Of a DNA stretch of 64,000 nucleotides, positions 7,437 through 34,048 are shown piece after piece (within the stretch, counting starts at the first letter, position 1; each line of letters starts with the position of its first letter). The notes beneath the pieces are model-generated. The model had not been told where the DNA came from and searched no databases. It saw only the letters and a list, made by a program, of their open reading frames with translations. The DNA is from Verrucomicrobiaceae bacterium E54 (GTDB lineage Bacteria > Verrucomicrobiota > Verrucomicrobiia > Verrucomicrobiales > Akkermansiaceae): positions 1 through 64,000 of the forward strand of contig JAKZES010000014.1 in assembly GCA_022548915.1 (NCBI GenBank), read 5' to 3'. A program made the translations under genes and the position numbers.

Positions 7437-7599
7437 GTTCCAGGGGACGAGGTCCTTTCTACGGGGAGGTCCCGAGGATTCTCGCAGTGGGAGGGCGGGC
7501 TCGACCGACGGAATTCGTGCGGTGAAAGGTGTTCCTGCGTGACGGGGTAGGGGAGGGAATGTAGTTTTTCCCCTGATCCCGGCGTCGCCGGTACTGCCC

Positions 7600-10041
7600 A
7601 TGAAACACGCCCGACTGTCCTTCTTCGTCTCGATCGCCTTTCCGGCGGTGGTGGCCGGGCAGGCGACCGTGCCGGACTTCGTGACCGAGGTGAAGCCCCT
7701 GCTCGAGCAGCACTGCGTGCGCTGCCACCAGGAGGACAAGGTGAAGGGCGGGTTGCGGATGGACAACAAGGAGGATTTCTTCGATGGCGGCAGCGATGAG
7801 GACTTCATTCCCGGGGATGTTGCCGGCAGTGGCGTGACCCGCCGCATCCTGCTGCGGCCGATCGACGAGGGCTACATGCCGGACAAGGGCCGCGTGCTCG
7901 AGAAGGAGGAGGTCGATGTGATCGTGGCCTGGGTCGCCGGTGGCGCGCCATGGCCGGACGGGGTGACGCTGAGCGCGCGTGAACCGGCTCCGGTTCCGCG
8001 GGCGCCGATGCCGGAGCGGGCTCCGAAGGATGCTGCGGACGCGTCCCGCATGCTGGATGGCCTGGTGGGGCACATTCTGGAGTCGGAGCGGATCACGCCG
8101 ACGCCGCCGATCGATGAGCTCGCCTTGCTGCGCCGGACGACCGTCGATCTGATCGGACGCATCCCGACGAATGAGGAGATCGACGAATACCTGGCGTGGC
8201 CCGCGGGAACGAGGCGCGACCAGCTCGTCGGGAAGCTGCTCGAGGATCCGCGCTTCGCCGACCGCTGGTCGGTGTTCTTCGCCGACATGCTTCGCATCCG
8301 CTCGAACCAGCCCGCGGCGAACCTCTGGCTCGGCTGGGTCCACCGCGCGCTGCGCGAGGGCAAGCCCTACGACGAAATGGTGCGCGAGATGATCGCGTCC
8401 TCCGGTCGGCCGGGAAGCATGCCGGCGGTCGGTTTCCTGCTCGCCGAGCAGGCCAATGCGCTCGAACTTGGGGCGGTGACCTCGCAGGTTTTTCTCGGCG
8501 TGCAGATCGGCTGCGCGATGTGCCACGACCATCCCTACGACGACTGGGAGCAGGAGGACTTCTACGACTTCGCCGCCTTCTTCGGGAAGACTCGCACGGT
8601 GGGGCGCCGCGACCGTGGCTCCAACTACGTGACCGAAGCCGGGGACACGACCGTGATGTGGCCGCCCGAAGACAAGGCGGGCGATGCGAAGCGCAGGCCG
8701 GTGGATGCCCACTATCCCTTTGAGCTGGTCGAGTTCGAGGAAACCCCGGATTACATCCGGCGGTTGGAGAAGCTGCGGGCCGGAGGAAAGCCCGGAGCGG
8801 ACGAGGCGGTCGCCGAAGCGGAGATCGAGGATCTGCTCGATGCGATCGATGAGAAGACGGGGGACTCGGTCTTGGATGAGGCGCTGAAGGAAAGCCGCCA
8901 GCTGCAGGTGGAGAAGGATCTGTATCGGACCAGCGAGCTGCGCGCCCGCCTCGCGGACCGGATCACCGATCCCCGGAATCCGTATTTCGCCAAGGCCTTC
9001 GTCAACCGGATGTGGGCGGAGCTGATCGGCCACGGCTTTGTCGAGCCGCTCGACAATTTTTCGGCCTACAACGACCCGGTCCACGTTTCGGCCATGGAAT
9101 TTCTCGCCCAGGAGTTCATCGCCGGCGGCTACGACATCAAGTCGCTGATCCGGATGATCGTCGGCAGTGAAGCCTATCGCCGGAGCGTGGCTCCGATCGG
9201 CACCACCGCCAGCGACCGCGAGCACGCCGAGCGCTTGTTCGCGGCGGCCCCCGCACGGCGGATGCTGGGAGAAACCCTCTACGACAGCATCGTGATCGCC
9301 GGGCATCTGCAGAAGCCGAAGTGGCCGGCCGGCGCGAACCTGCGCACCGAGACCTACCAGGTCCGGGTGCCCGTCGGCACCGAGGATCTCCCCGAAGGCG
9401 AAAGCGCCTCGTCGGGGGCGGCACCGATGATGGCGGGCATGCCGACGAAGCGGACCGATGGCTATGATTTGGAAACGACCCTCGAGCTGGACTTCGAGAG
9501 CCTGCAAAAGCAGCAGAGCCAGGCCGAGTTGATCGCGATGCGGGAGGCGGAGGACCAGCGCCTCGCGGAGCGCGAGCGGGCGATGGCGATGCAGGAAACC
9601 AACCGGACCCGGACGATTTACGAGACCCGCACGGAGACCCGTGAGGTGGATGACAACCCGGTCTTCGGTTCCGCCCTGCGGATGGCGAGCCCCGCGCCGC
9701 CGGCGCACTTTCTGCGGGTCTTCGGTCAGCCGTCGCGCGAGGGGCTCGGCGAATTCCGCGAGGACGATGCCTCGATGCGCCAGCAACTGATGATGATCAA
9801 CGGTCGCCTGACCAACGAAGCAGCGAGGGTCGGTCCCTTCGAACCGATGCATCGGGCGCTCGAGGAGAGCCACGAGCAGGCGGTAAAGTTGGCCTACCGC
9901 GAAATCCTGACCCGCCTGCCCGATGATCGCGAGATGCAGATGGCGCTCAAGCTTCTGGCGGCCGAAGGCGACCCCGCCGAGCACATGGCCGATCTCCGCT
10001 GGGCTCTGCTCAACAGCCACGAATTCCGTTTCATCCCGTGA
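7600..10041 (+). CDS. DUF1549/DUF1553 protein with planctomycete-type cytochrome c domain
   Basis: 813 aa with an N-terminal signal peptide. A short cytochrome-type domain follows, with HCVRCH at C39/C42/H43 (CxxCH haem-attachment motif) and the GGLRMD segment typical of PSCyt1 domains. A DUF1549 region (DELALLRRTTVDLIGRIPTNEEID, then DPRFADRW) contains a second CxxCH (IGCAMCHDHPYDDW), and a DUF1553 region follows (FAKAFVNRMWAELIGHGFVEPLDNF). Such proteins are abundant in Planctomycetes and Verrucomicrobia, nearly always beside DUF1501 genes, as here. Their reaction is unknown, but the haem motifs imply extracytoplasmic redox chemistry. First gene of the chain 7600-20813. Confidence 0.9.
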   Translation: MKHARLSFFVSIAFPAVVAGQATVPDFVTEVKPLLEQHCVRCHQEDKVKGGLRMDNKEDFFDGGSDEDFIPGDVAGSGVTRRILLRPIDEGYMPDKGRVLEKEEVDVIVAWVAGGAPWPDGVTLSAREPAPVPRAPMPERAPKDAADASRMLDGLVGHILESERITPTPPIDELALLRRTTVDLIGRIPTNEEIDEYLAWPAGTRRDQLVGKLLEDPRFADRWSVFFADMLRIRSNQPAANLWLGWVHRALREGKPYDEMVREMIASSGRPGSMPAVGFLLAEQANALELGAVTSQVFLGVQIGCAMCHDHPYDDWEQEDFYDFAAFFGKTRTVGRRDRGSNYVTEAGDTTVMWPPEDKAGDAKRRPVDAHYPFELVEFEETPDYIRRLEKLRAGGKPGADEAVAEAEIEDLLDAIDEKTGDSVLDEALKESRQLQVEKDLYRTSELRARLADRITDPRNPYFAKAFVNRMWAELIGHGFVEPLDNFSAYNDPVHVSAMEFLAQEFIAGGYDIKSLIRMIVGSEAYRRSVAPIGTTASDREHAERLFAAAPARRMLGETLYDSIVIAGHLQKPKWPAGANLRTETYQVRVPVGTEDLPEGESASSGAAPMMAGMPTKRTDGYDLETTLELDFESLQKQQSQAELIAMREAEDQRLAERERAMAMQETNRTRTIYETRTETREVDDNPVFGSALRMASPAPPAHFLRVFGQPSREGLGEFREDDASMRQQLMMINGRLTNEAARVGPFEPMHRALEESHEQAVKLAYREILTRLPDDREMQMALKLLAAEGDPAEHMADLRWALLNSHEFRFIP

Positions 10042-10153: not shown

Positions 10154-11416
10154 ATGTCCGGATGCACCGACTACCACATGACCCGCCGCCGCATGCTCGG
10201 CATGGTGGGTGCCAGCATGATGGGGATGCCCATCAGCCGCCTGCTTGCCGACATCGACAGCTCGCGCAAGGGCAGTGCCGACCATGTGATCCTGTTCTGG
10301 AACAGCGGAGGCATGAGCCACCTGGACACCTGGGATCCCAAGCCCGGCCGCAAGGTCCAGGGCGAGTTCGAGCCGATCAAGACCTCGGTCGACGGGATGG
10401 AGATCAGCGAGATCTTCCCGCAGCTCGCGAAGCAAATGCACGACGCGGCCCTGCTGCGCTCCATCGCCGGAGTGAATGGTGACCACGGCCGGGCGCAGTA
10501 CGAACTGCAGACGGGTTTCAATCAGACGCCGAACCTCGTGCACCCCGGGCTGGGCTCGATCGTCGTCCACGAAATGGAGCCGCTCGGCGACCTTCCGGCC
10601 TTTGTCAGCATCAGTGGCCAGGCATCGAAGGCCGGCTACCTCGGCCAGCGCTGCGAGGCCTACTTCGTGGGCCGTCCGGGCGACAAGGATCCGTATCTCG
10701 CCTTTCCGGAGGGCATTCATCACGAACGCGGCATGAAGCGGCTCGAGATCCTCGCGGAGATGAACGCGCGGCATTCGGCATCGACCGGATGCCCGGAGTT
10801 CCAGGCGACCGAGGTCGCCCTGCGCGAAGCGGTGAAGCTGATGGAGAGCCCGGCGCTCAAGGCCTTCGAGATCGACGACGAAAAGCCGGAAACCATCCAG
10901 CGCTACGGCGACACCGAGTTCGGTCGCGGTGCACTGCTCGCCCGCCGACTGGTGGAGAAGGGGGTCCGCTTCGTGCAGGTGAATCGTGGAGGGTTCGACA
11001 ACCACGGGGGCATCTTCGACGCCATGCGGGCGCATGGTGCGGTGATGGACCCCGCCATCGCCTCGCTCATCTCGGACCTGCGGGCGAATGGCAAGCTGAG
11101 CCGCACGCTGGTGATCGTGCTGAGCGAATTCGGCAGGACGCCGCGGATCAACGGCAACGGCGGCCGCGACCACCATGCCCGCTGTTTCAGCGCGCTGATG
11201 GCCGGAGGCGGGCTGAAGGGCGGATCCATCGTCGGGGCATCCGATCCCGACGGCATGGTGCCGGCCGAACGCCCGATCCAGGTCGCCGACATCCACGCGA
11301 CGGTTTGCCATGCCCTGGGCATCGCGCCGGATCGTGAAGTCATTTCCCCCCAAGGCCGACCGATGCGTCTGGTGCGCAAGGAGGCTCAACCGATCAAGGA
11401 ACTGTTCCCCGCATGA
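10154..11416 (+). CDS. DUF1501 domain protein, Tat-exported
   Basis: 420 aa. The N-terminus carries a twin-arginine-like motif (MTRRRMLGMVGASMMG; the ATG at 10178 is an alternative start giving a more compact signal). The body matches the DUF1501 family, which has an alkaline phosphatase/sulfatase-like fold: FWNSGGMSHLDTWDPK near the N-terminus, NRGGFDNHGG, and the signature LSEFGRTPRINGNGGRDHH toward the C-terminus. These proteins are the obligate partner of DUF1549 cytochrome-type proteins, and the two probably act together outside the cytoplasm. The enzymatic role is not established. It overlaps the next gene by 4 bp (ATGA), so coupled translation is likely. Confidence 0.9.
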   Translation: MSGCTDYHMTRRRMLGMVGASMMGMPISRLLADIDSSRKGSADHVILFWNSGGMSHLDTWDPKPGRKVQGEFEPIKTSVDGMEISEIFPQLAKQMHDAALLRSIAGVNGDHGRAQYELQTGFNQTPNLVHPGLGSIVVHEMEPLGDLPAFVSISGQASKAGYLGQRCEAYFVGRPGDKDPYLAFPEGIHHERGMKRLEILAEMNARHSASTGCPEFQATEVALREAVKLMESPALKAFEIDDEKPETIQRYGDTEFGRGALLARRLVEKGVRFVQVNRGGFDNHGGIFDAMRAHGAVMDPAIASLISDLRANGKLSRTLVIVLSEFGRTPRINGNGGRDHHARCFSALMAGGGLKGGSIVGASDPDGMVPAERPIQVADIHATVCHALGIAPDREVISPQGRPMRLVRKEAQPIKELFPA

Positions 11417-13590
11417 GCTTGAGCAGGTTCGTTCCGCTGCGTGCGGGATGGTTGCTGGCACTGGCGTTGCTCGTCCTGCCGCCTGGTTTCGCGCAGGAGC
11501 GGGGTTCGGTGGTCGAGGATCGGGCGGCGAGGAAGTTGCTGCAGGCCGGCGATGTGCGGATGGAGCTGGGCGAGACGAAGAAGGCGGTCGAAGTCTGGGA
11601 ATCGGTGATCGACCGCTATCCGCGCAGCCCGATTCGCTTTCAGGCGCATCTGCGGGTCGCCGATTTCCTGCTCGAGGAGGAGCGGGCCCACGATCGGGCG
11701 CGCCAGCATTACGAGGCGGCAGCGGTCGAGGCAAACGGCGATGAGGATCTGCGGGTGCGGGCGCTGCTGATGAGTGGCGTGTGCCATTTCGAGTCGGCCC
11801 AGTATGGTCATTGCTTCAAGGTGATGCGTTCCCTGATCCAGGGCTTTCCCGGACGAACGGAAGTCAACGACGCCCATTACTACATCGGGCTGAGTCATTT
11901 CAAACAAGGCCACTACGGCCGCGCGATCGAGGCGCTCGACAAGGTGGGAACCGCGGTGGGCGCGGATGGCCCGACCGTTGCCAAGGTCGAAGCCGGCCGG
12001 CGCCTGCATGTGCGCATCGACGACCAGGACCTGGCGATCCTGCCGCGGGGTGAGGCGGTGATGGTGCGCTGCACGAGCAGCAGTGGTGACGAAGAAAGCG
12101 TGGCGTGTCATCCGGTCGGCCGGGAAGTGAAGGTCGCGCTTGGCAGCCTGGCGACCGCCTTGGCAAATCCGGAGAAGGGCAATGGAATTCTGGAGGTTCG
12201 GGGAGGCGATGAGGTGATGGTCGAGTACATCGATGCGCATGCGGCTGAGCGCGCCCAGGATGTGCCACGACGGCATCAGGTGACGGTGGTCGGAACGGGT
12301 CGGGCCCGGATCACCGATGGCGGCTACGAGCAGGACCTGCGGGCCGCCGTCCTGGGCAAGGCCGTGCATCTTGAGGTGACGGATGCCGATCTGGATACCG
12401 GTCCCGGGCCGCAGGCACTTGAAGCGAAGCTCGAAGTCTGGCGGAAGCGAACTGCCGACGAGATCGACGAGGAACTCGCGCGGCGGGTTGCGGCGGGTGA
12501 AGCGGCGGAGGGGCCGGAAGGGGAAGACTTGCGATCAAAGATCGATCCCGGGGTGGCGGTTCGATCGGAAGCGGTGAGCTTGACCGAGTCCGATGAGCCC
12601 GGGGTCTTCAGGGCGTCTGTCGCGATTGGAGGCGATCGCGGACTTGAGGCGGAGCCGGGTCAGTGGCTGCGGCTCGTCTATCAGGACGAGGAGCACTTCG
12701 GTGAGGGCTCGCTCGAATGCCGGGCCGAGGCGCGGGTGATCGAGGGCAATCTCGGAGACATGCGCGTCAGTCGGTCGGACATCAGCGACGAGGATCTGCG
12801 TTTGAAGACCCAGCTGCGCACGGCCGGGGCGCTGACGCGGGTGGGCGGGCAGTACGACGACTTCGGGCTGCACGAGCAGGCGATGGCGAAATACCGTGAG
12901 GCCTTGCAGGTCTGCGAGGAACTGCTGGGTGACGCCCGCAAGGAAGGCGGCAAGCTGCTCGAGGAAACCTACGTCGAGTTGTGGCGGATCTACTTCGCGA
13001 TGGACGAGCTCGATCTCGCCTTGAGCATGAGTCGTCTGCTCCAGAAGGAATTTCCCGAGAGCACCTATGTCGATGAGGCGATGCTCCAGCAGGCTCATGT
13101 CGAGCGCGAGCGGGAGGACTGGAACCGGGCGATCCAGCTTTACTCGGGGATCGTTTCCATGCGCGAGAGCAAGTTTCGGGGGGATGCCCAGTTCGCGATC
13201 GGCGAGTGCTACGAAGCGATGGCGCTCAAGGCATCTGGCGGGCGTGGCGACGGGTATTTCGAGAAGGCTTTCGTGGCCTACAAAAAGGTCTACGAGGAGT
13301 TTCCCGATTCCAGCAAGGTCGGTGAGGCCGTTTCCAAGATGGCATCCTTCTATTACCAGAAGCAGGACTACGAACGTGCGGTGGACGTCTTCGAGAACGT
13401 GCTCGCCGACTATCCGGACGCGGCCTTTCTCGACGTGATTCTCTTCAATCACGGCCGTTGCCTCTACAAGCTCGGCCGCAAGAGCGAGGCGCGGGGCCGC
13501 TTCGAGCAGATCATCCAGGATTTTCCCGAGAGCGATGTCGCCGCCGAGTCGGTGAAGATTGTCGAGGCCCTGAAGAAAGGAGGCTTTTGA
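11413..13590 (+). CDS. Secreted TPR / beta-domain / TPR protein
   Basis: 725 aa with signal peptide (cleavage near GFAQE, residue about 27). Three parts: N-terminal tetratricopeptide-like helices (about 30-190); a middle beta-rich section (about 192-460) with two copies of a module built around DxDL motifs (RIDDQDLAIL; EVTDADLDTG) and ending in GVFRASV-type strands; and C-terminal TPRs (about 465-725) with YbgF-like repeats (AVDVFENVLADYPDAAFLD). The same architecture recurs, much enlarged, in the next gene, so the two are paralogues and probably partners on the cell surface or in the periplasm. No enzymatic motif. The start overlaps the DUF1501 stop (ATGA). Confidence 0.8.
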   Translation: MSLSRFVPLRAGWLLALALLVLPPGFAQERGSVVEDRAARKLLQAGDVRMELGETKKAVEVWESVIDRYPRSPIRFQAHLRVADFLLEEERAHDRARQHYEAAAVEANGDEDLRVRALLMSGVCHFESAQYGHCFKVMRSLIQGFPGRTEVNDAHYYIGLSHFKQGHYGRAIEALDKVGTAVGADGPTVAKVEAGRRLHVRIDDQDLAILPRGEAVMVRCTSSSGDEESVACHPVGREVKVALGSLATALANPEKGNGILEVRGGDEVMVEYIDAHAAERAQDVPRRHQVTVVGTGRARITDGGYEQDLRAAVLGKAVHLEVTDADLDTGPGPQALEAKLEVWRKRTADEIDEELARRVAAGEAAEGPEGEDLRSKIDPGVAVRSEAVSLTESDEPGVFRASVAIGGDRGLEAEPGQWLRLVYQDEEHFGEGSLECRAEARVIEGNLGDMRVSRSDISDEDLRLKTQLRTAGALTRVGGQYDDFGLHEQAMAKYREALQVCEELLGDARKEGGKLLEETYVELWRIYFAMDELDLALSMSRLLQKEFPESTYVDEAMLQQAHVEREREDWNRAIQLYSGIVSMRESKFRGDAQFAIGECYEAMALKASGGRGDGYFEKAFVAYKKVYEEFPDSSKVGEAVSKMASFYYQKQDYERAVDVFENVLADYPDAAFLDVILFNHGRCLYKLGRKSEARGRFEQIIQDFPESDVAAESVKIVEALKKGGF

Positions 13591-16500
13591 TGAGGGGGGT
13601 TCTCGATCAATTGGTCCGCCCGGTGCCAAAGCCTGAAGGGCTTTCAGATACCAGCCCAGGGCAACGCCCTGGGTGTGAGGTTGGAGGAAATCCGCAGGCT
13701 GAAGGCCTGCCACATGCGGGGAGCGAACGGTCTCGCGGGTCTTCAGCCCGCCAATATGGGTCCACATCGATTCCCAGGGCGTTGCCCTGGGCTGTGTTCT
13801 TCGGGGACCTTCGGCCCCTGAGTTGTTTGATCGCGATCATCGTTCTTCACTCCGCCGTATCCGCCGCCGACGTGGATGATCTGGAGGCCAAACTCAGGGA
13901 TCATCTAACCGACAGCCCCGAGGCGGCGGAGCTGATGCTCGAATTGCTCAGCGAGCGCGAGGCGAACGAGGACGTGTTCGGGGTCATCAAGACGGCCGGT
14001 GATTTCGTCCGCGCTCAGGCAGGGCACCCGCGGCGTGCCGAGGTGATGGTGCGTCTGATGGAGGGTCATGCCGCCGGCGCGCGACATGCGGATGTGGTGG
14101 CCACGGGGAAGCGCTTCCTTGAGTTGTTTGCGGATGATCCGTCCGCACCGCGGGCGCATCGGGCGATGGCGGAAGCCTTCGAGGAACTGGGACGCCCTGC
14201 AGAGGCGGCGGGCCACTGGGCGGCACTGGGCTTGAAGGGCGATCCACTGATGGTGAAGCGTGCCCTGGATGGATTCGACCGCGCGGAGAATGCCCAGGCG
14301 GCGCGTGAAGGAGCGGAGTTCGCGGCCGCGGTTTTGGGCAACAAGCCATCGGAGCCATGGTCGATTTCCGCGGCCTTGAAGGGGATGGAGTTGGCCCATC
14401 GCGCCGAGCAGTGGGAAACGGGTGCGGAAATGGGTCGGTCGGTATCGGCCGCGAAGGGTGATCCGGCACTGAAGCGACAGCTCTGGTTCCGGCTTGGAGA
14501 GTTCGAATCGAGGCGGGGTCGCCATCAGGAAGCCGCCGCAGCGATGGAGGGGGCGCTGGATGCAGACGATCGGGAGCACTGGGCGGGCTTCCTTCGGGAG
14601 TTGGCCGCCGCCGGGGCCGATGCCTCGGTTCTGGCCGCCAAGGCCCGCGAAGTGGCGAAGATTTTGCCGGGCGATCCGGTTGCCCATGAAGCGGCCGTGC
14701 GGGCATTCGATGCCTATGTCGGGGGCGATCAGGCGGCAAAGGGGCTGGCTTTCGCCGAAGCGAAGATGGCAGGCGGCGATTACTCTCATGATCTTGTCCG
14801 TCGCTATGTCGAGGCCTGCGGTGACGATCATGGAAGGGCCGAGGGATTCCTGCGCGGGCAGGTGGGCAAACAGGCCGGAAGCGGTGCTGCGTTGAGGGAG
14901 GTATTGGCCGTCGATCTCTATCAGCACCGGATCAAGGACGCCGGCAAGTCCCGCGCGATGGCGCTTGAGTGGCTTTCCAAGTCGCCCAGCGCTCAGGGAG
15001 CCGATCGCATTGTGGCATGCCTGATCGATCAGGCAGCCGACGAGGGAGAGGTGAACGCTGATCTTGCGGCAATCATCGAGAGTGGTCGACGGGGTGCACA
15101 CCTCGAGGGCTATTGGCAGGCATTGTGGCGGTGGCGGAGCGAGGATCCCGCGCGCCGCAAGCTCATCGACAATGCCAGGAGGAACTTCGAGCGCGATCCG
15201 GTGGTGCGGCTTTGGTCGCGTGCGTGGAAGGGTCACCAGGAGGGGGCGCGGGCCTGCGACGAACTGCTCAAGCAGTCGCTTTCCTCCGAGCAGAAGAAGT
15301 GGGTGATGCGCCGCAAGGCCCACCTGCATCGTCATGAGCTGGGCGACAAGGTCCGCCAGCGTTCGCATGAGGCGTTTCGCGACTACTGCAAGGCCTACCC
15401 GAAGGATCGCAAGGCGGCGGAGGCGTGGCTCGAGGCGGCGGTTTATGGTGACGATGCCGCCAAGCTGGAAGCGGCCCGGCACATGCTTTCCTTCGCACCC
15501 TATGCGGCCCATCCGGATACCCGGGTGCGGGTGGTGGAGGTGGGGGATGCCGCTCATCGCAGGAAGGCCGCCGAGTGGGCCGGAAAGTGTGCGGAGCTTG
15601 CCGGGTCGCCGGGTTGGCACGCCGCCCGGATCGGACGGCTGCTGGCGGATGTGGAGCTGGAGGCGGATGCGCGTCGATGGTGGAGCCGGCAGTATGAACT
15701 GGGGCCCGACGAACACGGCGGGGTCGATTCACTGATTCACCTCACCGGCACCATGGAGGAGGACGAGGCCGTGGCGAAACTGGAGGAGGCCTTCCAGCGT
15801 TCGGACACGGTGCACGGACCGATCGCCATGGCTCTGGCGGACCGGGCCTTTCGGGCCGGGGATCTGTCCTCCTTCGCCAAGTGGACGAAGGCGACCCGCG
15901 AGCGTCAGGATGCGCGTCCGTTCCAGGATTGGCACGTCGGCGAATGGCCGGCTCGTGGCTGGATGGAGCACGCGGTGAAGTCCTCCGAGATGCCGGATGG
16001 GGACAAGGCGAAGGTCTATGCCGCCATTTCAAAACTCCGGATCGGGCGAATCAGCGCCGAGGCGGGTGCCCGGCTGGCATTGCTCGAGGAGCCTTCATGG
16101 GAACGCATCACGAATCTCCAGCAGGCGATCCGGGGTGCGGACCGGCACCATGAGTCGTGGACCCGGCTCTACGACCGGGCGCTGGAGGCGATCCGCCGCC
16201 GGGACATGACGCTCGCCGCGGCGATCCTCAACGGCATGCTCCATTCGGTGGGTGGTGTGGATGAGAAGGAGATGGAAAAGGCGCGTGCCCGTCTCCGGAC
16301 CGCCTACGCCAGCATGGGCAGCCTCGGATCGGACATTCCCGAGGACAGCCCGATCGCGCCGCTTCTGGAGGTGGTCCTCAATCTGCGGCTGGGAGAAAGC
16401 GACAAGGCGGAACAGGCCTACTTCCAGCGCCGTGCGCTGTTCGACAAGCATGTGGCGGAGCTGCCGATCGAGTTGCTGCTTTTCGCCGCCGAGACGCACA

Positions 16501-19500
16501 TCGAACTGGGTGACGAGAGCGATCACGAACGTGCCGAGGAAATGCTTCGCGGATGGCTGGTCCGCAATGGGGAGTCCGAACAGGTGGCGAGCCGCGACAA
16601 GGCCCGCATTCAGCTCCTGCTCGCGCGCAACTACCTTGCGTCCCAGCGCTACGATGTGGCGCGGGCCGAGTACAACACGCTGTTGCAGCTTTATCCGGAT
16701 GAGGCCGAAACCATCGACGCGAAGTTCGGCATCGGTGAAACCTATCTGGCGCAGGGGATCGAAGACCAGGCCCTGGAAATCTTCGAGGACCTCGCGGCCA
16801 GTGGCGATCCACGCGTGGCGATCCGTGCCGACTTCATGCGGGGGCTGGTGGCAATCCGCCTCGACGAGCCGGACGAGGCACGTCGCATTTTCCTGACGGT
16901 GCTGGAGAAGGTGCCGGAGATCGATCTGGCGGATTCCACGCTCTACCACCTCGCCGAAGTCTATGGCATCGAGCAGCGCTACCTCGCGCAGCTCGAGACC
17001 TTGAGAACGGTCGGGCGGCTGGGTCGCGAATCGCAGCGTTGGCTGACGCCGGGCAAGGCGCTGGCGGTGGTGGTGCAGGATCCGGATCTGGGCATCAGCC
17101 GTGGCGAGATGAAGCTGCCGGTGCGGGTGACCACCGATCCCGGCGGTGACGTCGAGGATTCCTTCCTCCTGAGCGGTGGCGCGGGTCGCGGCATCTTCCT
17201 CGCCGACATCCCGTCGGTGCTCGGGGTGGCCGAACCCAACGACGGCATTCTGCAGGTCACGGGCGGTGACCTGATCCGCGTGGACTACCCCGCTGAGTTC
17301 AAGGAGCAGTTCAAGAATCAGATTCTCGAAGGATCACGCATTCGCATTGCCACCGATGGCCGTCTGGAGGTGGCGAGTCGGACACTCGAAGAGGATGAGG
17401 AAGAGAGCTTCACCGACACGCTTCGCAAGGAGGAGGAAGAGACGCCGACGCTGGCGGATCAGCGCCCGGTGAACCAGGTCAAGCCGGGCAACCTGATCCA
17501 CGTGCGGGTGACCGACGGCGACCAGGACCGCACCGAGCAACCCGACGAGGTGGCGGTCAAGCTGGCGACGAGCAGTGGTGACGTGGTTCGCGTGCCGGTC
17601 CGCGAGCGCTCGGCGCACGGCGGGGTCTTCGTCGGGGCGATTCCGACCGGGGAACTGCCGGCGGGGGCGCGGGCCAGCGACACGGCGATCGACCACAGCC
17701 CGCTGATGGCGATCGACCAGCGGCGCGAGTCGAGCTGGCGCAGCACGCTGGATGGCGCGGCACCCAAGAGCCTGACCGTCGACATGAAGGAGCCGCGGGT
17801 GGTCGAAAGTGTCCGGCTGGAGTCGCCGCGGGAGGACTCCGAGATGCCGATCGAGCTGAGCTTGCACGCCAGCCACGACGGACGTTTCTGGTACAAGCTC
17901 GCCGAGCATCCGTCGATCGAAGCCGTGCCGCTGCCCCGGTCGGAAATGAAGGGAATGGTGCGGCGGGTGTTCGAGGCTCCGAAGGACAAGCTGCCCGAGA
18001 ACGTTTCGTGGGCGGATCTGGCCAAGGTGCTGGAGGCCTTCGAGCCGGTGGAGGAAGCGGTGGTCGAGGAACTTTCGTGGCAGCCGCCGGTGGAGGGAGA
18101 CAAGGTGCACCTGGTCGTGTGGTCCGGGCCCCTGGTCCAGCCGCGGGCGGGCGCGCTCCGTTTTTCGATCGAAGGCCAGCACACCGCCCTGATGTTCGAC
18201 GGTCGGCTCGAGTTGCCCGTCGGCCAGGGGGGGCGCAGCGTGGACGTCCACGCGGCGAAGGGCATTCATGAATTGGTGGTCGTTTCGATGGTTCCAGCGG
18301 GAGAGCAGGCGGCCCGGGCGAGCCGGGCGCGGGAAAACCGCCGCAGCGCGAACGTGCATCTGGCGCCCTTCGTCGCCGAAGACTTCGACCTGACAACGGT
18401 GGCCGGCCTGGAGCGGGTGACCGGTCCCATAGGTGGCCCGCTGGTCCGCGACGGCGCCGCATGGATCCTGAAGCAGGCACCGCTCGAGCTGCGGCACCTG
18501 CGGTGGGAGTTCACCCAGTTCAATGGAGCGGGTGTTTCGGTGAACCACATGACGGTCGCGGGCGGGGGGGCGACGCACATTCCGACCGAAGAAGACGTGC
18601 TCGAGCTCGCCGGAAACGAAACCCTGGAACTCGCTCCAGGCGATCAGGTCACGATTTCCTACCTCGACGAAATCGGGGCGGACGGGCTGAACCGGAACCG
18701 CCTGCTCGAGGGGAGCCTGACGGCGACCTACGGCGACGGTCGCGTGACTCCGATCACCTATTCGTTTAGCCGGGGTGGATCCGGAGAAGTGGGGCGCCAG
18801 CGCCACGAGTTGCTGCGGATCGAGCCCGGCGACCGGATCGTGGCCGAGGTCGTCGACTACGATCTGGATCGAAGCATCAAGCGCGACGAGGTGGAAGTGG
18901 AGGTCGAGGCGCCCGACGGCACGCGCACGGTGCTGACGGCGACGGAGACCGGCCCGACGACCGGCGTCTTCCTTGCCGAAGTCGAGACCTCGGCCGAGGC
19001 GGCCGAGGGAGCGATCCAGGTCGCGCCGGGGGAGCGGGTGTTCCTCCGCTACCGCGACGAGCAGAACAACTTCCCCGGGCACGCCTACGTCCGGGAGTCC
19101 TACGTGATCGTCAATGACGCCAGTGCCGGATCCATGCGGGTGATCGCTTCGGGTGCGCTGCCGGGGCAGTCACCGGCGATGACGCCGGAGCAGGTCGCGG
19201 GCGACGGTCCGGTCGAGGTCAGCCTCAGGCTTCCACTCACGATCGAAGTGATCGATCCGGACCGGGCACTCCACACCGGCAGCCGGATCGAGGTGGACGT
19301 CGAGAGCAGCCAGGGGACCCGTGCCCGGATCGAGTGTGCCCTTTCCACCGACCATTCCCCGGGTCTGGCCATTCAGGACGATTCGCTCAATCCGGCGCTG
19401 CAGGCCGGTCGCTTCGTCGGGCAGATCCCGCTGGCTCTCGGTGATGTGGAAAGCGTGGCCGTCGAGCCCGCGGATGAATCCGGTGGCGGGGAGGCGGCGA

Positions 19501-20813
19501 TCCTCAACGTCCAGGGCAACGACACGGTGACGGCCGGTTATGCGGACGAGCGTCGGCCGGACGCGGAAGTCGTGTCGATGACGAGCGAGGCGGTTTTCCG
19601 GACGCGGGGCAGTCTGGAGGTGCTGGACGAGGGCTACGAGGAGGCGGTCGAAGGAGTCTTCCTCGGCAAGCGGCTCTACCTTCAGGTCGAGGATCCGGAT
19701 CTCGACATCACGCCCGGCCGCGACATTGCGCTGGTGCGGGTGCGCTCGGAAAGCGGCGAGGAGGAAACGCTCGAGCTGAGCGAAACCCTCAGCCACAGCG
19801 GCGTGTTCAACGCCTCGTTCCCGCTGGTCGCCGCCTCGAAGCCGACACCCGGCAATCCCGAGGGCGGCGTGGAGTGCTTCTTCGGCGACACCCTGACCGT
19901 CGGCTACCTCGACAATGTCATGCAGCGACCCGACGGCACGCCGGTGGTCGAGCTGCAGGTCGCCGTGGCGATGGGTGTCGATGGATCGGCGCTGGCCTTC
20001 AGCAAGAACTTCCGCGACGAGGACCTGGCGATCCAGACGCAGTTCCATGTCGCCGAGTGCCACTTCGAGTTGTTCAAGAGCCATCGCGCGCTCGAGCAGG
20101 AAGAGGAGGCCATGGTTGAACTCGAGGCGGGTCGCAAGGTGCTGCAGGAGCTTCGCGAGGATTTTCCGGATCCAAAGTATGCGCCGCGTGTCTTCTACCT
20201 GCTCGGGCAGTTCGCCCAGGAGCTGGAGGACTGGGAAGAAGCGGTGAGCGCCTACCGGACCGTGGTGCGCAACCACCCGCAGCATTCGCTGGCGCCCGAG
20301 GCGCTCTACAAGATGGGGCAGTGCCACGAGGAGGCCGGTCAGCTCGACGAGGCGCTCGAGGACTACGCCACCCTCGCCGCCACCTATCCGAAGAGCCCGC
20401 TCATCGCCAACGTCATGCTGCGGATCAGCGAACACTTCTATCAGAAGGAGGACTTCCCGGTCGCGGCCAGCGTCGGCCGCAAGTTCCTCGAGCGATTCCC
20501 AACCCACGAGTGGGCGCCCAAGATGGCCTTCCGGGTCGGGCAGGCCCTTTACAAGAACGAGGAGTTCGGCAACGCCGCCGAGGCCTTCGACGAGTTCACC
20601 AAGCGCTTTCCCGACGAGGAGCTGACCTCCCAGGGCCTGTTCTGGTCCGGCGAAAGCTACCGCATGGCCGGCAACATCCCCGAAGCCTTCCGCCGCTACA
20701 ACCGTTGCCGCTGGGACTTCCCGGAAAGCGAGGCGGCGAAGTACTCACGCGGCCGCCTGGCATTGCCGGAGCTGCTTTCCGAGTTCGACCGGCAGGCGGA
20801 TCTGGGCGATTGA
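13590..20813 (+). CDS. Giant secreted TPR / repeated beta-domain protein (2407 aa)
   Basis: The ATG at 13590 overlaps the previous stop (TGATG) and has a strong Shine-Dalgarno sequence (aaaggagg, 13576-13583), so it is the likely start. Codons 13-76 are an inverted-repeat element, and the signal-peptide core (LSCLIAIIVLHSAVSAAD) begins only at about residue 76. Then come about 1040 residues of TPR-like helices, followed by at least four beta modules with the DPDLD pattern (VVQDPDLGI about 1150, RVTDGDQDR about 1300, VVDYDLDRS about 1750, VEDPDLDIT about 2030). Between them lie a discoidin/CBM32-like segment (about 1367-1445) and a PA14-like segment (about 1497-1573). The C-terminal TPRs (about 2140-2407) resemble those of the preceding paralogue. 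Probably a cell-surface scaffold or polysaccharide-binding protein; the function is unknown. Confidence 0.8.
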   Translation: MRGVLDQLVRPVPKPEGLSDTSPGQRPGCEVGGNPQAEGLPHAGSERSRGSSARQYGSTSIPRALPWAVFFGDLRPLSCLIAIIVLHSAVSAADVDDLEAKLRDHLTDSPEAAELMLELLSEREANEDVFGVIKTAGDFVRAQAGHPRRAEVMVRLMEGHAAGARHADVVATGKRFLELFADDPSAPRAHRAMAEAFEELGRPAEAAGHWAALGLKGDPLMVKRALDGFDRAENAQAAREGAEFAAAVLGNKPSEPWSISAALKGMELAHRAEQWETGAEMGRSVSAAKGDPALKRQLWFRLGEFESRRGRHQEAAAAMEGALDADDREHWAGFLRELAAAGADASVLAAKAREVAKILPGDPVAHEAAVRAFDAYVGGDQAAKGLAFAEAKMAGGDYSHDLVRRYVEACGDDHGRAEGFLRGQVGKQAGSGAALREVLAVDLYQHRIKDAGKSRAMALEWLSKSPSAQGADRIVACLIDQAADEGEVNADLAAIIESGRRGAHLEGYWQALWRWRSEDPARRKLIDNARRNFERDPVVRLWSRAWKGHQEGARACDELLKQSLSSEQKKWVMRRKAHLHRHELGDKVRQRSHEAFRDYCKAYPKDRKAAEAWLEAAVYGDDAAKLEAARHMLSFAPYAAHPDTRVRVVEVGDAAHRRKAAEWAGKCAELAGSPGWHAARIGRLLADVELEADARRWWSRQYELGPDEHGGVDSLIHLTGTMEEDEAVAKLEEAFQRSDTVHGPIAMALADRAFRAGDLSSFAKWTKATRERQDARPFQDWHVGEWPARGWMEHAVKSSEMPDGDKAKVYAAISKLRIGRISAEAGARLALLEEPSWERITNLQQAIRGADRHHESWTRLYDRALEAIRRRDMTLAAAILNGMLHSVGGVDEKEMEKARARLRTAYASMGSLGSDIPEDSPIAPLLEVVLNLRLGESDKAEQAYFQRRALFDKHVAELPIELLLFAAETHIELGDESDHERAEEMLRGWLVRNGESEQVASRDKARIQLLLARNYLASQRYDVARAEYNTLLQLYPDEAETIDAKFGIGETYLAQGIEDQALEIFEDLAASGDPRVAIRADFMRGLVAIRLDEPDEARRIFLTVLEKVPEIDLADSTLYHLAEVYGIEQRYLAQLETLRTVGRLGRESQRWLTPGKALAVVVQDPDLGISRGEMKLPVRVTTDPGGDVEDSFLLSGGAGRGIFLADIPSVLGVAEPNDGILQVTGGDLIRVDYPAEFKEQFKNQILEGSRIRIATDGRLEVASRTLEEDEEESFTDTLRKEEEETPTLADQRPVNQVKPGNLIHVRVTDGDQDRTEQPDEVAVKLATSSGDVVRVPVRERSAHGGVFVGAIPTGELPAGARASDTAIDHSPLMAIDQRRESSWRSTLDGAAPKSLTVDMKEPRVVESVRLESPREDSEMPIELSLHASHDGRFWYKLAEHPSIEAVPLPRSEMKGMVRRVFEAPKDKLPENVSWADLAKVLEAFEPVEEAVVEELSWQPPVEGDKVHLVVWSGPLVQPRAGALRFSIEGQHTALMFDGRLELPVGQGGRSVDVHAAKGIHELVVVSMVPAGEQAARASRARENRRSANVHLAPFVAEDFDLTTVAGLERVTGPIGGPLVRDGAAWILKQAPLELRHLRWEFTQFNGAGVSVNHMTVAGGGATHIPTEEDVLELAGNETLELAPGDQVTISYLDEIGADGLNRNRLLEGSLTATYGDGRVTPITYSFSRGGSGEVGRQRHELLRIEPGDRIVAEVVDYDLDRSIKRDEVEVEVEAPDGTRTVLTATETGPTTGVFLAEVETSAEAAEGAIQVAPGERVFLRYRDEQNNFPGHAYVRESYVIVNDASAGSMRVIASGALPGQSPAMTPEQVAGDGPVEVSLRLPLTIEVIDPDRALHTGSRIEVDVESSQGTRARIECALSTDHSPGLAIQDDSLNPALQAGRFVGQIPLALGDVESVAVEPADESGGGEAAILNVQGNDTVTAGYADERRPDAEVVSMTSEAVFRTRGSLEVLDEGYEEAVEGVFLGKRLYLQVEDPDLDITPGRDIALVRVRSESGEEETLELSETLSHSGVFNASFPLVAASKPTPGNPEGGVECFFGDTLTVGYLDNVMQRPDGTPVVELQVAVAMGVDGSALAFSKNFRDEDLAIQTQFHVAECHFELFKSHRALEQEEEAMVELEAGRKVLQELREDFPDPKYAPRVFYLLGQFAQELEDWEEAVSAYRTVVRNHPQHSLAPEALYKMGQCHEEAGQLDEALEDYATLAATYPKSPLIANVMLRISEHFYQKEDFPVAASVGRKFLERFPTHEWAPKMAFRVGQALYKNEEFGNAAEAFDEFTKRFPDEELTSQGLFWSGESYRMAGNIPEAFRRYNRCRWDFPESEAAKYSRGRLALPELLSEFDRQADLGD
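13626..13820. repeat. REPIN-like inverted-repeat element inside the coding start of the 2407-aa protein
   Basis: Contains two short palindromes that are exact reverse complements of each other: cccagggcaacgccctggg (13655-13673) and cccagggcgttgccctggg (13773-13791). They are flanked by further small hairpins: AAAGCC/GGCTTT at 13628-13644, CAGGC/GCCTG near 13695-13710, and GGGG/CCCC at 13803-13818. It is read in frame as about 65 residues rich in Gly, Pro, Ser and Arg. Confidence 0.85.
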
Positions 20814-21128
20814 GGTCGGAATCGGACGAGGGCCGCTCGGAAGCCGGTGGAGGCAGTCGAAGCAACGAGCAGCTTGAGTGGTTGTGCATCACGATTAGTG
20901 TGTGTGAGTAAAAAATCCGAATTGAATGCTTGCAAATTTCCCCATCGTGAGGAATTTTCAGCTCGCTTTGCCGAGAAGAAACCCGGGGAGCGGTAACTCC
21001 CCGGGTCTTTTCGTCCGCCTTTTCCAAGGAAATGTATGGTCGTTCGCCAGCATCGTAATCTTGGGTGACGCCGGATCAAGAACCAACCCGTCGAGCGGAG
21101 CGAGCGGGTCCAACCCCAATACGAACCA
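20814..21128. other. Intergenic region between the giant TPR gene and the restriction island
   Basis: No gene could be supported. The region is AT-richer around 20890-20960 than its flanks, carries one strong terminator hairpin (listed separately) and, at about 21088-21112, a weaker GC hairpin. It marks the boundary of the accessory island. A promoter for the DUF3892/hsdS/hsdM unit should lie here, but I cannot point to a convincing one. Confidence 0.5.
20981..21011 (+). terminator. Rho-independent terminator after the DUF1549-to-TPR chain
   Basis: A perfect 10-bp stem, ACCCGGGGAG (20981-20990) with CTCCCCGGGT (20997-21006), has a 6-nt loop and is followed by CTTTTC. It lies 170 bp after the TPR stop, with no gene between. 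Confidence 0.8.
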
Positions 21129-21416
21129 ATGGCCATTGAAGTCCAAATTCGCTGCATCAACAAAACCGACCGCCACAGTGCCCACGAGCGTATTTCCCAC
21201 GTTGGAGGCACCAACCCTGATGGAAATCGCTGGAAACTCACCCTCGACGACGCCATTGCCGGCATCGAAGCAGGCAAGTGGAGTTTCTACGTGATGGAGG
21301 CCGGCACCAAGGTCCGCGTCATCATCGCCATCAGTGCGAGCGGCCGGAAATACCTGAAAACCGAGAACGACGGCGAGCAGCCCAACAATCTGCTGAGTCT
21401 CCAGGAGTGTCCGTAG
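21129..21416 (+). CDS. DUF3892 family protein
   Basis: 95 aa, cytosolic. It matches the DUF3892 pattern from end to end: [14 protein letters not shown] near residue 20, a [15 protein letters not shown] segment, [20 protein letters not shown] near the C-terminus. DUF3892 proteins are small and of unknown biochemical role, often found in accessory regions. Only 12 bp separate it from the following half-size hsdS gene, so it is probably the first gene of the restriction-system transcript. Confidence 0.8.
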
Positions 21417-21428
21417 TGGCGAGTCCCC

Positions 21429-22016
21429 ATGCCGACGTTTCCACTCAAAGACTTGGCAACCATCCGCATGGGGGTGACCCTGCGGGGTCGGGACGCCACC
21501 CGTCACGATCCCGCGGGACCCTATCGGCTGATCCAGATAAGCGACCTTGACGATGCCGGAGCGTTTCGAAACCGGGACTTCGTCCGGATTACGCCGCGAG
21601 AATCCTTCAACCGTGAACTGCTGTTGCGCTCCGGCGACCTGATCTTCCCCAATCGCGGCAGTCGGACGACGGCGGCAGTCTTCGACGACAGCGATCTTCC
21701 GGCTTTGGTCGGGCCGCAATTCTTCATCATCCGGCCAGTTTCCGACGAAATTCTCGGGGCCTATCTGGCGTGGATGCTGCGCACCCGCGAGGCCTTCTCC
21801 TACTTCGACGCCAACCGACGGGGGAGCAACGTGCTGACCCTTCAAAAGCCTGCGCTTGAGGCGTTCGAATTGCCGGTTCCCCCGCTTGAGGTTCAGCATG
21901 CCATCGTTGAAATCGACCGCCTCGGACACCTCGCCTCCGCTCTCGAATCCCGCCTCGCCGTCCTACGCTCCCTTCACCTAGAACAATCCTTACTCCAACG
22001 AGCCAAGCTCCCCTGA
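21429..22016 (+). CDS. Half-size type I restriction specificity subunit (HsdS-like, one target-recognition domain)
   Basis: 195 aa, less than half of a normal HsdS. It contains one target-recognition domain (residues about 1-150, with GDLIFPNRGSRTTAAVF and LTLQKPALEAFELPVPPLEVQHAIVEI), then one conserved helix (AIVEIDRLGHLASALESRL). The protein ends cleanly after the helix, with hsdM starting 3 bp later, so it seems a designed half-subunit rather than a broken gene. Single-TRD S proteins can dimerise to recognise palindromic sites or replace one half of HsdS. A complete two-TRD HsdS is encoded at 25170. Confidence 0.8.
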   Translation: MPTFPLKDLATIRMGVTLRGRDATRHDPAGPYRLIQISDLDDAGAFRNRDFVRITPRESFNRELLLRSGDLIFPNRGSRTTAAVFDDSDLPALVGPQFFIIRPVSDEILGAYLAWMLRTREAFSYFDANRRGSNVLTLQKPALEAFELPVPPLEVQHAIVEIDRLGHLASALESRLAVLRSLHLEQSLLQRAKLP

Positions 22017-22019
22017 CCC

Positions 22020-23516
22020 ATGGCCAAGCCCATTCACAACCAAGCCGAAATCAACGAGGCCGCCTGGCGCGCCTGCGACACCTTCCGTGGCCTCGTCGAT
22101 GCCGAGAACTACCGGAACTACATCCTCGTGATGCTGTTCTGGAAGTACGCCTCCGACGTCTGGCGCGACCACCGCGACCGCTACATGAAGGAATACGACG
22201 GTGACGAGGTCCGCGTGCAGCGCCGGCTCTCCCGCGAACGCTTCCAGCTCCCCGAGGGCGCCGATTTCTACTCGCTCTACGAGCAGCGCAGCCGCACCGA
22301 CATCGGGGAAAAGATGAACATCGCCCTGGCCGAAATCGAGGAGGCCAACAAGGCCAAGCTCGAAGGGGTCTTCCGCGAGGTCGACTTCAACTCCGAATCG
22401 AAGCTCGGCGAAACACGCGACCGCAATCCGAAGCTCAAGCAGCTGCTCGAGGACTTCGCCGACAAGCGGCTCGACCTTCGCCCGTCGGTCGTCGGCTCGG
22501 AGGACGTCATCGGCAACGTCTATGAATACCTTCTGGAACGCTTCGCCTCGGACGCCGGGAAAAAGGCCGGCGAGTTCTACACCCCGGCCCAAGTCTCGCG
22601 CCTCATCGCCCGCATCCTCGATCCGAAGAAGGGCGACACGATTTGCGACCCGGCCTGCGGCTCCGGCTCGCTGCTCATCCAGGTCGGCCGTCAGGCGGAC
22701 GAGCGGGACTTCGCCCTCTTCGGTCAGGAAATGAACGGCACCACCCACGCCCTGTGCCGGATGAACATGTTCCTTCACGGCATGGACAGGTTCGAGATCA
22801 AGTGGGGCGACACGCTGCGCAACCCGCGCCTCGTCGAGGGCGACCAGCTCATGAAATTCGACATCGTCGTCGCCAATCCGCCCTTCTCGCTCGACAAGTG
22901 GGGACAGGACGCGGCCGGGGCTGACCCTTACGTAAGGTACCACCGCGGCATCCCGCCGAAGTCGAAAGGCGACTACGCCTTCATCACCCACATGATCGAG
23001 ACCGCCCGCGAGGGCACCGGAAAGGTCGGCGTGGTCGTGCCCCACGGCGTCCTCTTCCGCGGCGCTGCCGAGGGCAAGATCCGCAAGGCGCTGATCGAGG
23101 AGAACCTCCTCGAAGCCGTCATCGGCCTGCCCGCCAACCTGTTCTTCGGTACCGGCATCCCCGCCGCCATCCTGATCTTCAACAAGGGCAAGACCCATGG
23201 CGACGTCCTCTTCATCGACGCCTCCCGCGAGTTCAAGGATGCCAAGAACCAGAACGTCCTGACGGAGGAGCACCTCGACAAGATCGTCGCCACCTACCGC
23301 GCCTTCGAGACGGTGGACAAGTACGCCTACCGCGCCACCCCGCAGGAACTCGCTGACAACGATTTCAACCTCAACATCCCGCGCTACGTCGATACCTTCG
23401 AGGAAGAGGAGGAGATCGACCTCGACGCGGTGAAGACGGAAATCAACACCCTGGAAGCTGAACTTGCCGCCGTTCGGGAGAAAATGAAGTCCCATTTGGA
23501 TCAAATTGGACTCTAA
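22020..23516 (+). CDS. hsdM: Type I restriction-modification system methyltransferase subunit HsdM
   Basis: 498 aa. This is the N6-adenine methyltransferase that protects host DNA and forms the M2S core with HsdS. The N-terminal HsdM helical domain (CDTFRGLVDAENYRNYILVMLFWKYASD) is followed by the AdoMet-binding segment GEFYTPAQVSRLI ... DPACGSGSLL (about residues 183-216) and the catalytic NPPF (about residue 285). The C-terminal tail (EEEEEIDLDAVKTEI) is the usual HsdS-contact helix. Translation is nearly contiguous with the upstream half-HsdS. Confidence 0.95.
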   Translation: MAKPIHNQAEINEAAWRACDTFRGLVDAENYRNYILVMLFWKYASDVWRDHRDRYMKEYDGDEVRVQRRLSRERFQLPEGADFYSLYEQRSRTDIGEKMNIALAEIEEANKAKLEGVFREVDFNSESKLGETRDRNPKLKQLLEDFADKRLDLRPSVVGSEDVIGNVYEYLLERFASDAGKKAGEFYTPAQVSRLIARILDPKKGDTICDPACGSGSLLIQVGRQADERDFALFGQEMNGTTHALCRMNMFLHGMDRFEIKWGDTLRNPRLVEGDQLMKFDIVVANPPFSLDKWGQDAAGADPYVRYHRGIPPKSKGDYAFITHMIETAREGTGKVGVVVPHGVLFRGAAEGKIRKALIEENLLEAVIGLPANLFFGTGIPAAILIFNKGKTHGDVLFIDASREFKDAKNQNVLTEEHLDKIVATYRAFETVDKYAYRATPQELADNDFNLNIPRYVDTFEEEEEIDLDAVKTEINTLEAELAAVREKMKSHLDQIGL

Positions 23517-23558
23517 ATGCTACTTGAAATACCCGTTCCGGGTGTTTAGAATAGCATT
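23516..23558. promoter_or_regulatory. Long palindrome overlapping the promoter of the NTase/winged-helix cassette (probable operator)
   Basis: Arms AATGCTA (23516-23522) and TAGCATT (23552-23558) pair outside, and AAATACCCG (23527-23535) with CGGGTGTTT (23539-23547) inside, around a 3-nt centre at 23536-23538. There is one G-T mismatch and a 4-nt internal loop. The dyad exactly brackets the -35 and -10 elements, as expected for autoregulation, perhaps by the winged-helix protein of the pair (inference). Confidence 0.65.
23524..23552 (+). promoter_or_regulatory. Internal sigma70-type promoter for the NTase/winged-helix pair
   Basis: TTGAAA (23524-23529), exactly 17 bp, then TAGAAT (23547-23552); close to the TTGACA/TATAAT consensus with optimal spacing. 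A start site would fall near 23558-23560, only a few bases before the ATG at 23564, so the message would be leaderless or nearly so. Confidence 0.7.
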
Positions 23559-23563
23559 AAAGA

Positions 23564-24160
23564 ATGAAAAAGCTCGATTCAACACTTCTCGACGAAGCCC
23601 TGAATCTCCTCGCCGAGCTGACATCAGACCACCCGCCACAGCACTGGGTGGTCTGCGGCGGCTCGTCGTTGTTGGCGCTTGGGCTGGTCAGTCGCGACAA
23701 AACCCGCGACGTGGACGTCCTAGCCCGCGCCGAGACTGATGGCTTGGTCAACGCCAGACCACTGCCTGACTGGCTCTACAAGGCAGCCGAGGAAGTCGGT
23801 AGCCAATTGGGGCTCTTGGAAAATTGGTTCAACACGGGACCATCCGACGACTCCTTTTTCCGCTTTGGATTCCCCGAAGGGATGGCAGCCCGCCTGATCC
23901 CGCGCGACTACGGCCCAGATGGAAATCTGCGCATCAGCTTCATCAGCCGCTACGATCAGATCTTTTTCAAGCTCTACGCCACGGCGGATTCAGACGCCGG
24001 ACGGCACTATGAGGATCTGCAGGATCTCCAGCCGACGGCTGAGGAGCTGCTTGCCGCCGCTCGCTGGACCCGCACCCAAGATCCCTCGGAAGGATTCCTC
24101 TTCGTCCTGGGAGGGGTCCTCAAGGCACTCGGTCATGAACCCCTCCTTGCACAACTTTAG
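23564..24160 (+). CDS. Nucleotidyltransferase-fold protein (DUF6036/AbiEii-like), putative toxin
   Basis: 198 aa, cytosolic. Nucleotidyltransferase core: VVCGGSSLLALGL (about residues 29-41), then DKTRDVDVLAR, which provides the paired acidic residues of the GS...DxD metal site, and a later ISFISRYDQIFFKL segment. Proteins of this type act as nucleotidyltransferase toxins (AbiEii/MenT class) or minimal nucleotidyltransferases. The next gene overlaps by 26 bp and encodes a winged-helix protein, the fold used by AbiEi antitoxins, although here the order is enzyme first. The pair has its own promoter in the gap after hsdM. Substrate and toxicity are inferred, not shown. Confidence 0.7.
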   Translation: MKKLDSTLLDEALNLLAELTSDHPPQHWVVCGGSSLLALGLVSRDKTRDVDVLARAETDGLVNARPLPDWLYKAAEEVGSQLGLLENWFNTGPSDDSFFRFGFPEGMAARLIPRDYGPDGNLRISFISRYDQIFFKLYATADSDAGRHYEDLQDLQPTAEELLAAARWTRTQDPSEGFLFVLGGVLKALGHEPLLAQL

Positions 24161-25157: not shown

Positions 25158-25169
25158 TCTCCCATCGCC

Positions 25170-27367: not shown

Positions 27368-27383
27368 ACCATCCTCCAGCACC

Positions 27384-33157: not shown

Positions 33158-33197
33158 TGAGGCTGGAGGAGGATTGGCGTTGCGGAATCGGTTGCCA

Positions 33198-33900: not shown

Positions 33901-34048
33901 GGAGGAAACTTTCCAGCTTTCTGGTTTTCCGTCAAGGCATGACCTCGGTCTGGCGCGCTGTGCCGAACTTAACCCATCCTTGCAGTTGATTCGAAAAACC
34001 CTTCGGGTGGCTGGCGTTCTAAGTCAGGCTCTTTCATCCCCAAGCATC

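Follow-up and report, generated by a model that had tools for sequence, protein, structure and literature searches.

A giant-TPR operon of PVC bacteria that probably encodes a proton-driven trans-envelope machine

Introduction

What do a small and a giant exported TPR protein, encoded directly behind a DUF1549–DUF1501 gene pair, do together? This question is raised by the stretch of DNA analyzed here (hereafter the window), which comprises positions 1–64,000 of the forward strand of contig JAKZES010000014.1 from Verrucomicrobiaceae bacterium E54 (GCA_022548915.1). To our knowledge, there is no settled account of how large polysaccharides enter planctomycetes and verrucomicrobia. The initial annotation of the window had proposed a surface machine in which giant scaffolds organize haem-linked DUF1549/DUF1501 enzymes on a (sulfated) polysaccharide. 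Uptake of large polysaccharides by these bacteria has been described as a phenomenon (the accessible part of PMC5520146).

Gene organization of the window and of a second locus

The four genes had been described as tightly linked, with the last three overlapping, and their coordinates agree. All lie on the plus strand: a gene with DUF1549 (PSCyt2), PSCyt1, and DUF1553 (PSD1) matches in Pfam (7600–10041), a DUF1501 gene (10154–11416; Pfam E = 7.3e-104), the gene of the small protein (11413–13590; 725 aa), and that of the giant (13590–20813). The DUF1501 and small genes overlap by 4 nt, and the small and giant genes by 1 nt. The haem link claimed for the DUF1549 protein is matched by two CxxCH motifs found in a motif scan, and the N-terminus of the DUF1501 protein carries a Tat-like RR. 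The sulfatase gene noted as divergent is also present, on the minus strand within ORF 5976–7847. The genome as a whole contains 15 DUF1549 and 18 DUF1501 matches.

A second locus of this genome lies on contig C111, where the genes of a TPR protein (584 aa), a small protein (792 aa), and two giants (2621 and 2460 aa) are followed by genes for MotA/ExbB, two ExbD proteins, a one-TM protein of 152 aa, and a membrane protein with DUF4159 (Pfam). Using the proteins of this locus as queries, we located the corresponding motor genes of the window, which again lie on the plus strand. They encode an ExbB/TolQ-type motor subunit (34049–34756; MotA_ExbB E = 1.8e-25), two ExbD/TolR-type subunits (34753–35175 and 35175–35582; ExbD E = 2.1e-16 and 3.9e-15, respectively), a one-TM "link" protein recognized by alignment, which has a Pro/Glu-rich tail and lacks the TonB-like His (35579–36031), a membrane protein with a C-terminal DUF4159 (36139–37545; E = 5e-32), and a third exported TPR protein, TPRa (37542–39149).

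The giant and ExbB genes of the window are separated by an island of 13.2 kb (20814–34048), in which Pfam detected a type I restriction-modification system, Fic, a YgjP-like metallopeptidase, and a PIN/RHH pair. In genome G319 of the same genus, the stop codon of the giant is directly followed by ExbB, and the two genes are contiguous also in G394, G393, and locus L198. The island is therefore an insertion into the operon, and it may have inactivated the window's copy.

The restriction/Fic/PIN island was inserted precisely at a junction between neighboring genes of this conserved operon. In G393 and G394, which share the gene order of the window (type III, see below), the type III genes are likewise separated, here after DUF1501, suggesting repeated insertion into the type III operon; Dam- and ParB-like frames were seen by eye nearby in G394.

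Conservation and gene orders

A profile built from the beta part of the small protein (A2) matched 29 of the 387 genomes of the phylum, some of them by beta modules only. Within the genus, the small protein was found in 9 of 18 genomes, weak beta matches counted, and some genomes possess two loci. Annotation covered 29 loci whose small gene was either complete or cut; four of them (in G341, G382, G318, and G201) were dropped for short contigs. ExbB was the next gene after the TPR, small, and giant genes in 23 of the 25 loci with enough sequence (23 of 26 if G382 is counted as a miss), and DUF4159 followed in all 21 of these 23 loci in which it was reachable (20 annotated loci and G319a). The two misses, G253 and G329, belong to one genus and keep TPRa, small, and giant without a neighboring ExbB. 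A further genome scan returned 80 loci, 66 of them non-duplicate. The chain included a giant in 55 and TPRa in 54 of the 66, with most misses at contig ends, and ExbB was next in 18 of the 19 further non-duplicate loci having at least 1.5 kb beyond the chain. As deposited, the loci are labeled Verrucomicrobia, Kiritimatiellae, Lentisphaerae, Planctomycetota (by label only), and a few odd ones. Frames of the small and giant types, some of them split, also occur in the cultured Rubritalea profundi SAORIC-165 (L197).

At the expected place of ExbB, G329 (L083:20232–32101; the G253 locus is L084) has unrelated genes, for an M18 peptidase and ketosynthases. DUF4159 alone proved too broad as a marker of the system, being present in 157 of the 387 genomes. 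An Akkermansia mucin-use locus was considered as the same system and was rejected; the small-size "g2" genomes listed for the family lack the small protein.

The patchy, accessory distribution of the small protein argues against one rival explanation, in which the operon would serve a Tol-Pal-like housekeeping function, the motor and the TPR proteins tethering or constricting the outer membrane and the sugar-type domains binding peptidoglycan or LPS. Such a role would be consistent with the scores of the TPR parts against the YbgF/CpoB model, which at 110 and 150 bits exceed its cut-off, although this is a general TPR match, and with the occurrence of PVC motor clusters in species without TolA/TonB, as reported in the accessible part of PMC12204202. 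On balance, we consider a housekeeping function unlikely.

The genes occur in three orders: TPRa–small–giant–ExbB... (type I), giant–TPRa–small–ExbB... (type II), and small–giant–ExbB...–TPRa (type III), the last being that of the window. In a midpoint-rooted FastTree phylogeny of 72 small proteins, each of the three orders formed its own clade (support 1.0 for types I and III and 0.90 for type II), with four unknown and one odd order label inside clade I. Type I loci have a ninth gene after DUF4159, which has no Pfam match and is homologous in all seven loci compared.

No shared theme of carbohydrate-related neighbors emerged from the 71 flanking frames scanned out of 111, the scan having omitted 14 frames longer than 900 aa and 26 others that looked spurious or were already operon members. 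No TonB-dependent outer-membrane receptor was present among the 25 listed families of the flanking-gene tally. Some operons lie beside a second motor cluster (L060:8373–15230, minus strand; L063; L075), made up of a TPR protein, a long ExbB, an ExbD, and a protein whose repeats weakly resemble those of squalene-hopene cyclase.

Motor residues and the link protein

The residues expected of a proton-driven motor are strictly conserved: two threonine columns in the ExbB TM helices are invariant in 26 of 26 aligned sequences, and all 48 ExbD sequences carry the TM Asp (39 were matched by pattern, the other 9 identified by eye). In most loci the TM helix of the link protein has the form ..[STA]xxxH...TS.., and the His is present in 18 of 20 aligned proteins. 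The link proteins of the window and of G319b lack this His, which makes TonB-like coupling doubtful in type III. Since the link protein of the second locus gave no Pfam match, it carries no known C-terminal force-transducing domain; specifically, neither TonB_C nor a TolA C-terminal domain was found on it by Pfam. In the alignment, the link proteins have a C-terminal tail rich in Pro and Glu. No vWA family was detected among the operon proteins scanned with Pfam, and most link proteins are short. The DUF4159 protein of the type II locus in G015 (L067:2784–4850) has an N-terminal FHA domain.

A single ExbB with two unlike ExbD proteins and large TPR proteins is also what surface adhesion or gliding of the Agl-Glt kind would call for. 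In the Agl-Glt machine of Myxococcus, TPR proteins and adhesins at the surface are moved over the substrate by one MotA-type and two TolR-type proteins, and the CBM32/PA14 and S-layer modules predicted in the giant (see below) could be adhesin parts. No motility gene, however, was present among the top families of the 71 flanking proteins, and surface adhesion or gliding appears to us an improbable function.

Domain structure of the small and giant proteins

The small protein as modeled by AlphaFold2 from 49 sequences (mean pLDDT 87.9) consists of a TPR part (residues 30–180), two Ig-like beta sandwiches (residues 190–301 and 311–443; 11980–12741, plus strand), and a second TPR part (residues 460–722). 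Pfam found TPR-type models only, and the Foldseek matches were TPR proteins, including the Campylobacter flagellar scaffold 9hmf_K. A sequence search with the beta part against solved structures returned nothing credible (best E = 0.16).

The giant (~2400 aa) has a long helical N-terminal part, a beta region, and a C-terminal TPR part, so that the layout of TPR, beta, and TPR proposed for the two exported proteins is indeed common to both. Its beta module is homologous to that of the small protein, as had been supposed, according to A2 profile matches at 17052–17381, 19488–19721, and 19641–19976 (E = 7e-5 to 3.5e-8). The sequence signature given for the module fared less well. The D-x-D-L-D motif occurs once in the small protein and twice in the giant, counts that were matched in 31 of 2000 and 4 of 2000 shuffles, respectively, but the other modules read DQDLA, DPDLG, DGDQD, and DPDRA at this position; similarly, GVF or GIF strands follow the motif in some modules but not in all.

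The start of the giant is uncertain, because residues ~4–66 of the ORF, ahead of the signal peptide, are encoded by a pair of 19-bp palindromic, REP-like elements in inverted orientation (13655–13791). The sole other exact pair of this palindrome in the genome is on contig C205.

Pfam recognized TPR and a sub-threshold F5/8C match in the giant, and of 40 giant beta regions only 13 gave an F5_F8_type_C match. The predicted model of residues 1120–2150 (pLDDT 80.2, pTM 0.62) was more informative. Comparison with VIA, in whose list a missing vWA or other fold carries no evidential weight, assigned a CBM32/F5-8C-type fold (17658–18563, plus strand; Z = 17.2, 121 residues, rmsd 1.8 Å) spread over model residues 239–540. 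It is interrupted by a PA14-like domain (17943–18404, plus strand; model residues 334–487) resembling Cea1A (5a3l; Z = 12.9, 149 residues, 3.7 Å). The discoidin-like and PA14-like segments of the initial annotation are thus recovered in the predicted structure. Ig-like modules of the S-layer type lie on both sides, a first one at 17037–17384 and others at 19119–19973 (plus strand). For the latter, VIA aligned 218 residues with the S-layer Ig pair of 8c8k (Z = 13.1, rmsd 7.7 Å), the best Foldseek row for the beta region was the Nitrosopumilus S-layer protein 8c8m (E = 5.3e-23), and the Nitrosopumilus S-layer was the sole PDB sequence match of the profile (E = 1.1e-7). The NCBIfam model of an anammox S-layer protein matched residues 1963–2111 weakly (E = 8.9e-9). 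A match of the module to a known domain of unrelated function had been named as a result that would speak against the proposed machine; the module does match a known domain, the S-layer-type Ig domain, but this is a structural module, and its function is not an unrelated one.

These matches raise the alternative that the TPR/beta proteins form an S-layer or a cell-wall-like coat, which the motor genes would help to export or assemble. Against this, the long TPR arms at both ends point to the binding of partners rather than to a lattice, and the accessible part of PMC11153153 describes S-layer proteins as Ig-domain arrays and mentions no TPR arms. The closeness of the beta modules to the Nitrosopumilus S-layer protein and the anammox model notwithstanding, we regard a coat as very unlikely. 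The predicted structures support the view that the giants are scaffold proteins with sugar-binding-type folds.

In a whole-genome search, two further proteins of the genome (at C222:65287–65568 and C226:16010–16258) scored higher against the anammox S-layer model than did the giant. Frames of 5146–6349 codons that carry the Ig-like module occur in same-genus genomes without the small gene (G387:C6:143085, G391:C6:91227, G178:C6:370845, G392:C64:170116, and G251:C1:137121).

Linkage of the DUF1549/DUF1501 and sulfatase genes

The DUF1549–DUF1501 pair lies directly upstream of the operon in the window, G319b, L196, and L198. The DUF1549 orthologs of G319, L196, and L198 are 53–54% identical to that of the window, and the DUF1501 orthologs beside the operon in G319b, L196, and L198 are 75–77% identical. 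DUF1501 orthologs were also compared in G319, G393, G394, and G408 (75–78% identity). In G394, a member of the type III clade, there is no pair in the ~1 kb upstream of the small gene, and the same DUF1549–DUF1501 pair is encoded on another contig. The pair of G393 is also on another contig, the type III locus of this genome being cut by the contig end. Even when unlinked, the DUF1501 ortholog is present in all four type III genomes of the genus and in none of the 14 genomes without type III (search at an E cut-off of 1e-90, with five genomes as positive controls). This association (Fisher P = 3e-4, ignoring the relatedness of the genomes) indicates that the DUF1549–DUF1501 pair is a real partner of type III.

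Beyond this clade, DUF1501 and DUF1549 genes were beside the operon in only 3 of the 33 non-duplicate loci with at least 5 kb upstream, one of which (L134) is not orthologous; the pair is therefore not a partner of the system at large. We had considered L134, which bears a Kiritimatiellia label, as an independent DUF1501 link and rejected it, its DUF1501 and DUF1549 proteins being 37% and 32% identical to those of the window, respectively. The coupling proposed in the initial annotation thus holds as co-inheritance in the type III clade, whereas the phylum-wide partners are ExbB, the two ExbD, the one-TM protein, and DUF4159. The best reading is that DUF1549 and DUF1501 are accessories of a subtype.

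The sulfatase gene is not a conserved neighbor of type III loci, and the suggestion that the polysaccharide is sulfated gains no support from it. A divergent sulfatase-like frame lies ~2 kb upstream of the DUF1549–DUF1501 pair in G393 (L202), and another lies ~11 kb from the TPR gene of the second locus. We dropped the sulfatase as a part of the system, an idea that is weak rather than excluded. In G393, a partial second copy of the DUF1501 3' end (L202:10007–10255) lies 0.9 kb after the full gene, as if it were the target of an integrating element.

Proposed machine

The synteny and the motor residues lead us to the reading that a PMF-driven motor works with TPR scaffolds. The genes described here probably make up a single operon, now interrupted, for a trans-envelope machine of PVC bacteria that would be driven by protons like Ton, Tol, and Agl, with giant TPR scaffolds, a system by which large molecules may be moved or held at the cell envelope. 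ExbB and the two different ExbD proteins would form a 5:2-type motor in the inner membrane, on which the one-TM link protein would dock like TonB or TolA where the His is present, with the DUF4159 protein as a membrane base. The three exported TPR proteins would build a periplasmic scaffold, the giant being its long arm: its helical solenoid may bind partners near the motor, and on its S-layer-type Ig stalk the CBM32/PA14-like head would be held toward a glycan located at the outer membrane or outside it. The arm would then be pulled or cycled by proton flow, whereby a large substrate would be imported, held, or moved. The dihaem DUF1549 protein of type III and its DUF1501 enzyme, exported by Tat, would have this substrate as their target. 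The predicted CBM32/PA14 head suggests a glycan, from which we infer glycan handling; this explanation is weakest where it names a glycan as the substrate and gives the work a direction.

A bolder version, which we hold to be rather doubtful, is a PVC-wide glycan winch powered by protons. In it, the ExbB–ExbD–ExbD motor would drive a ~260-kDa TPR/Ig arm spanning the periplasm, the CBM32/PA14 head would grip a polysaccharide and draw it through the outer membrane, and in one clade the glycan so captured would be processed by DUF1549/DUF1501. If true, the winch would let cells take up whole polysaccharides with neither SusCD nor TonB_C proteins.

More generally, the operon offers a concrete, deletable candidate for polysaccharide uptake, in which a motor is tied by synteny to giant scaffolds of a sugar-binding type. 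It also extends the set of 5:2 motor systems, and it gives DUF1549 and DUF1501, unknown families that are strongly multiplied in this genome, a machine partner supported by co-occurrence. Our literature search found no paper joining DUF4159 with ExbB, DUF1501 with DUF1549, or these two with TPR, and this long and widespread gene set is apparently undescribed so far.

Comparison with known systems

With Ton and Tol-Pal, the operon shares an ExbB/ExbD-type motor with conserved Thr and Asp and, in most loci, a His-bearing one-TM protein, but it differs in having no TonB_C or TolA C-terminal domain on the link protein, in its two ExbD, and in its giant exported TPR proteins and DUF4159. DUF1549–DUF1501 pairs of PVC bacteria have the same two Pfam-domain genes adjacent with DUF1549 first, and among them the machine is linked to the orthologous pair only. 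NmSLP and Kustd1514, two S-layer proteins, resemble the giant in the sequence and fold of the Ig-like module but, as far as we know, have neither TPR arms nor CBM32/PA14 nor linked motor genes.

The flagellar proteins PflA and PflB of Campylobacter are alike in surrounding a proton-driven motor with a TPR superhelix and a beta sandwich. According to the accessible part of PMC12222027, PflA combines these two elements and scaffolds the stator motors, which indicates that proteins of this build can scaffold proton motors. PflA and PflB serve the flagellar MotAB, however, and are far smaller; the likeness is one of fold.

Close counterparts are the PVC motor clusters of PMC12204202 (2025). In the accessible part of that paper, their genes encode a TPR protein, a TolQ-like protein, two dissimilar TolR-like proteins, and a TM transducer that bears a TonB-like His motif and ends in vWA; a role in force transduction is proposed for them, and AglRQS is named there as a motor. 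The present operon has in place of the vWA transducer a short protein without vWA, then DUF4159, and adds two further exported TPR proteins, including the giants. Neither DUF4159 nor the word "giant" was found in the available text of PMC12204202. As far as that text goes, the lack of a detected vWA and the addition of giants, DUF4159, and, in one clade, DUF1549/DUF1501 set the operon apart from those clusters.
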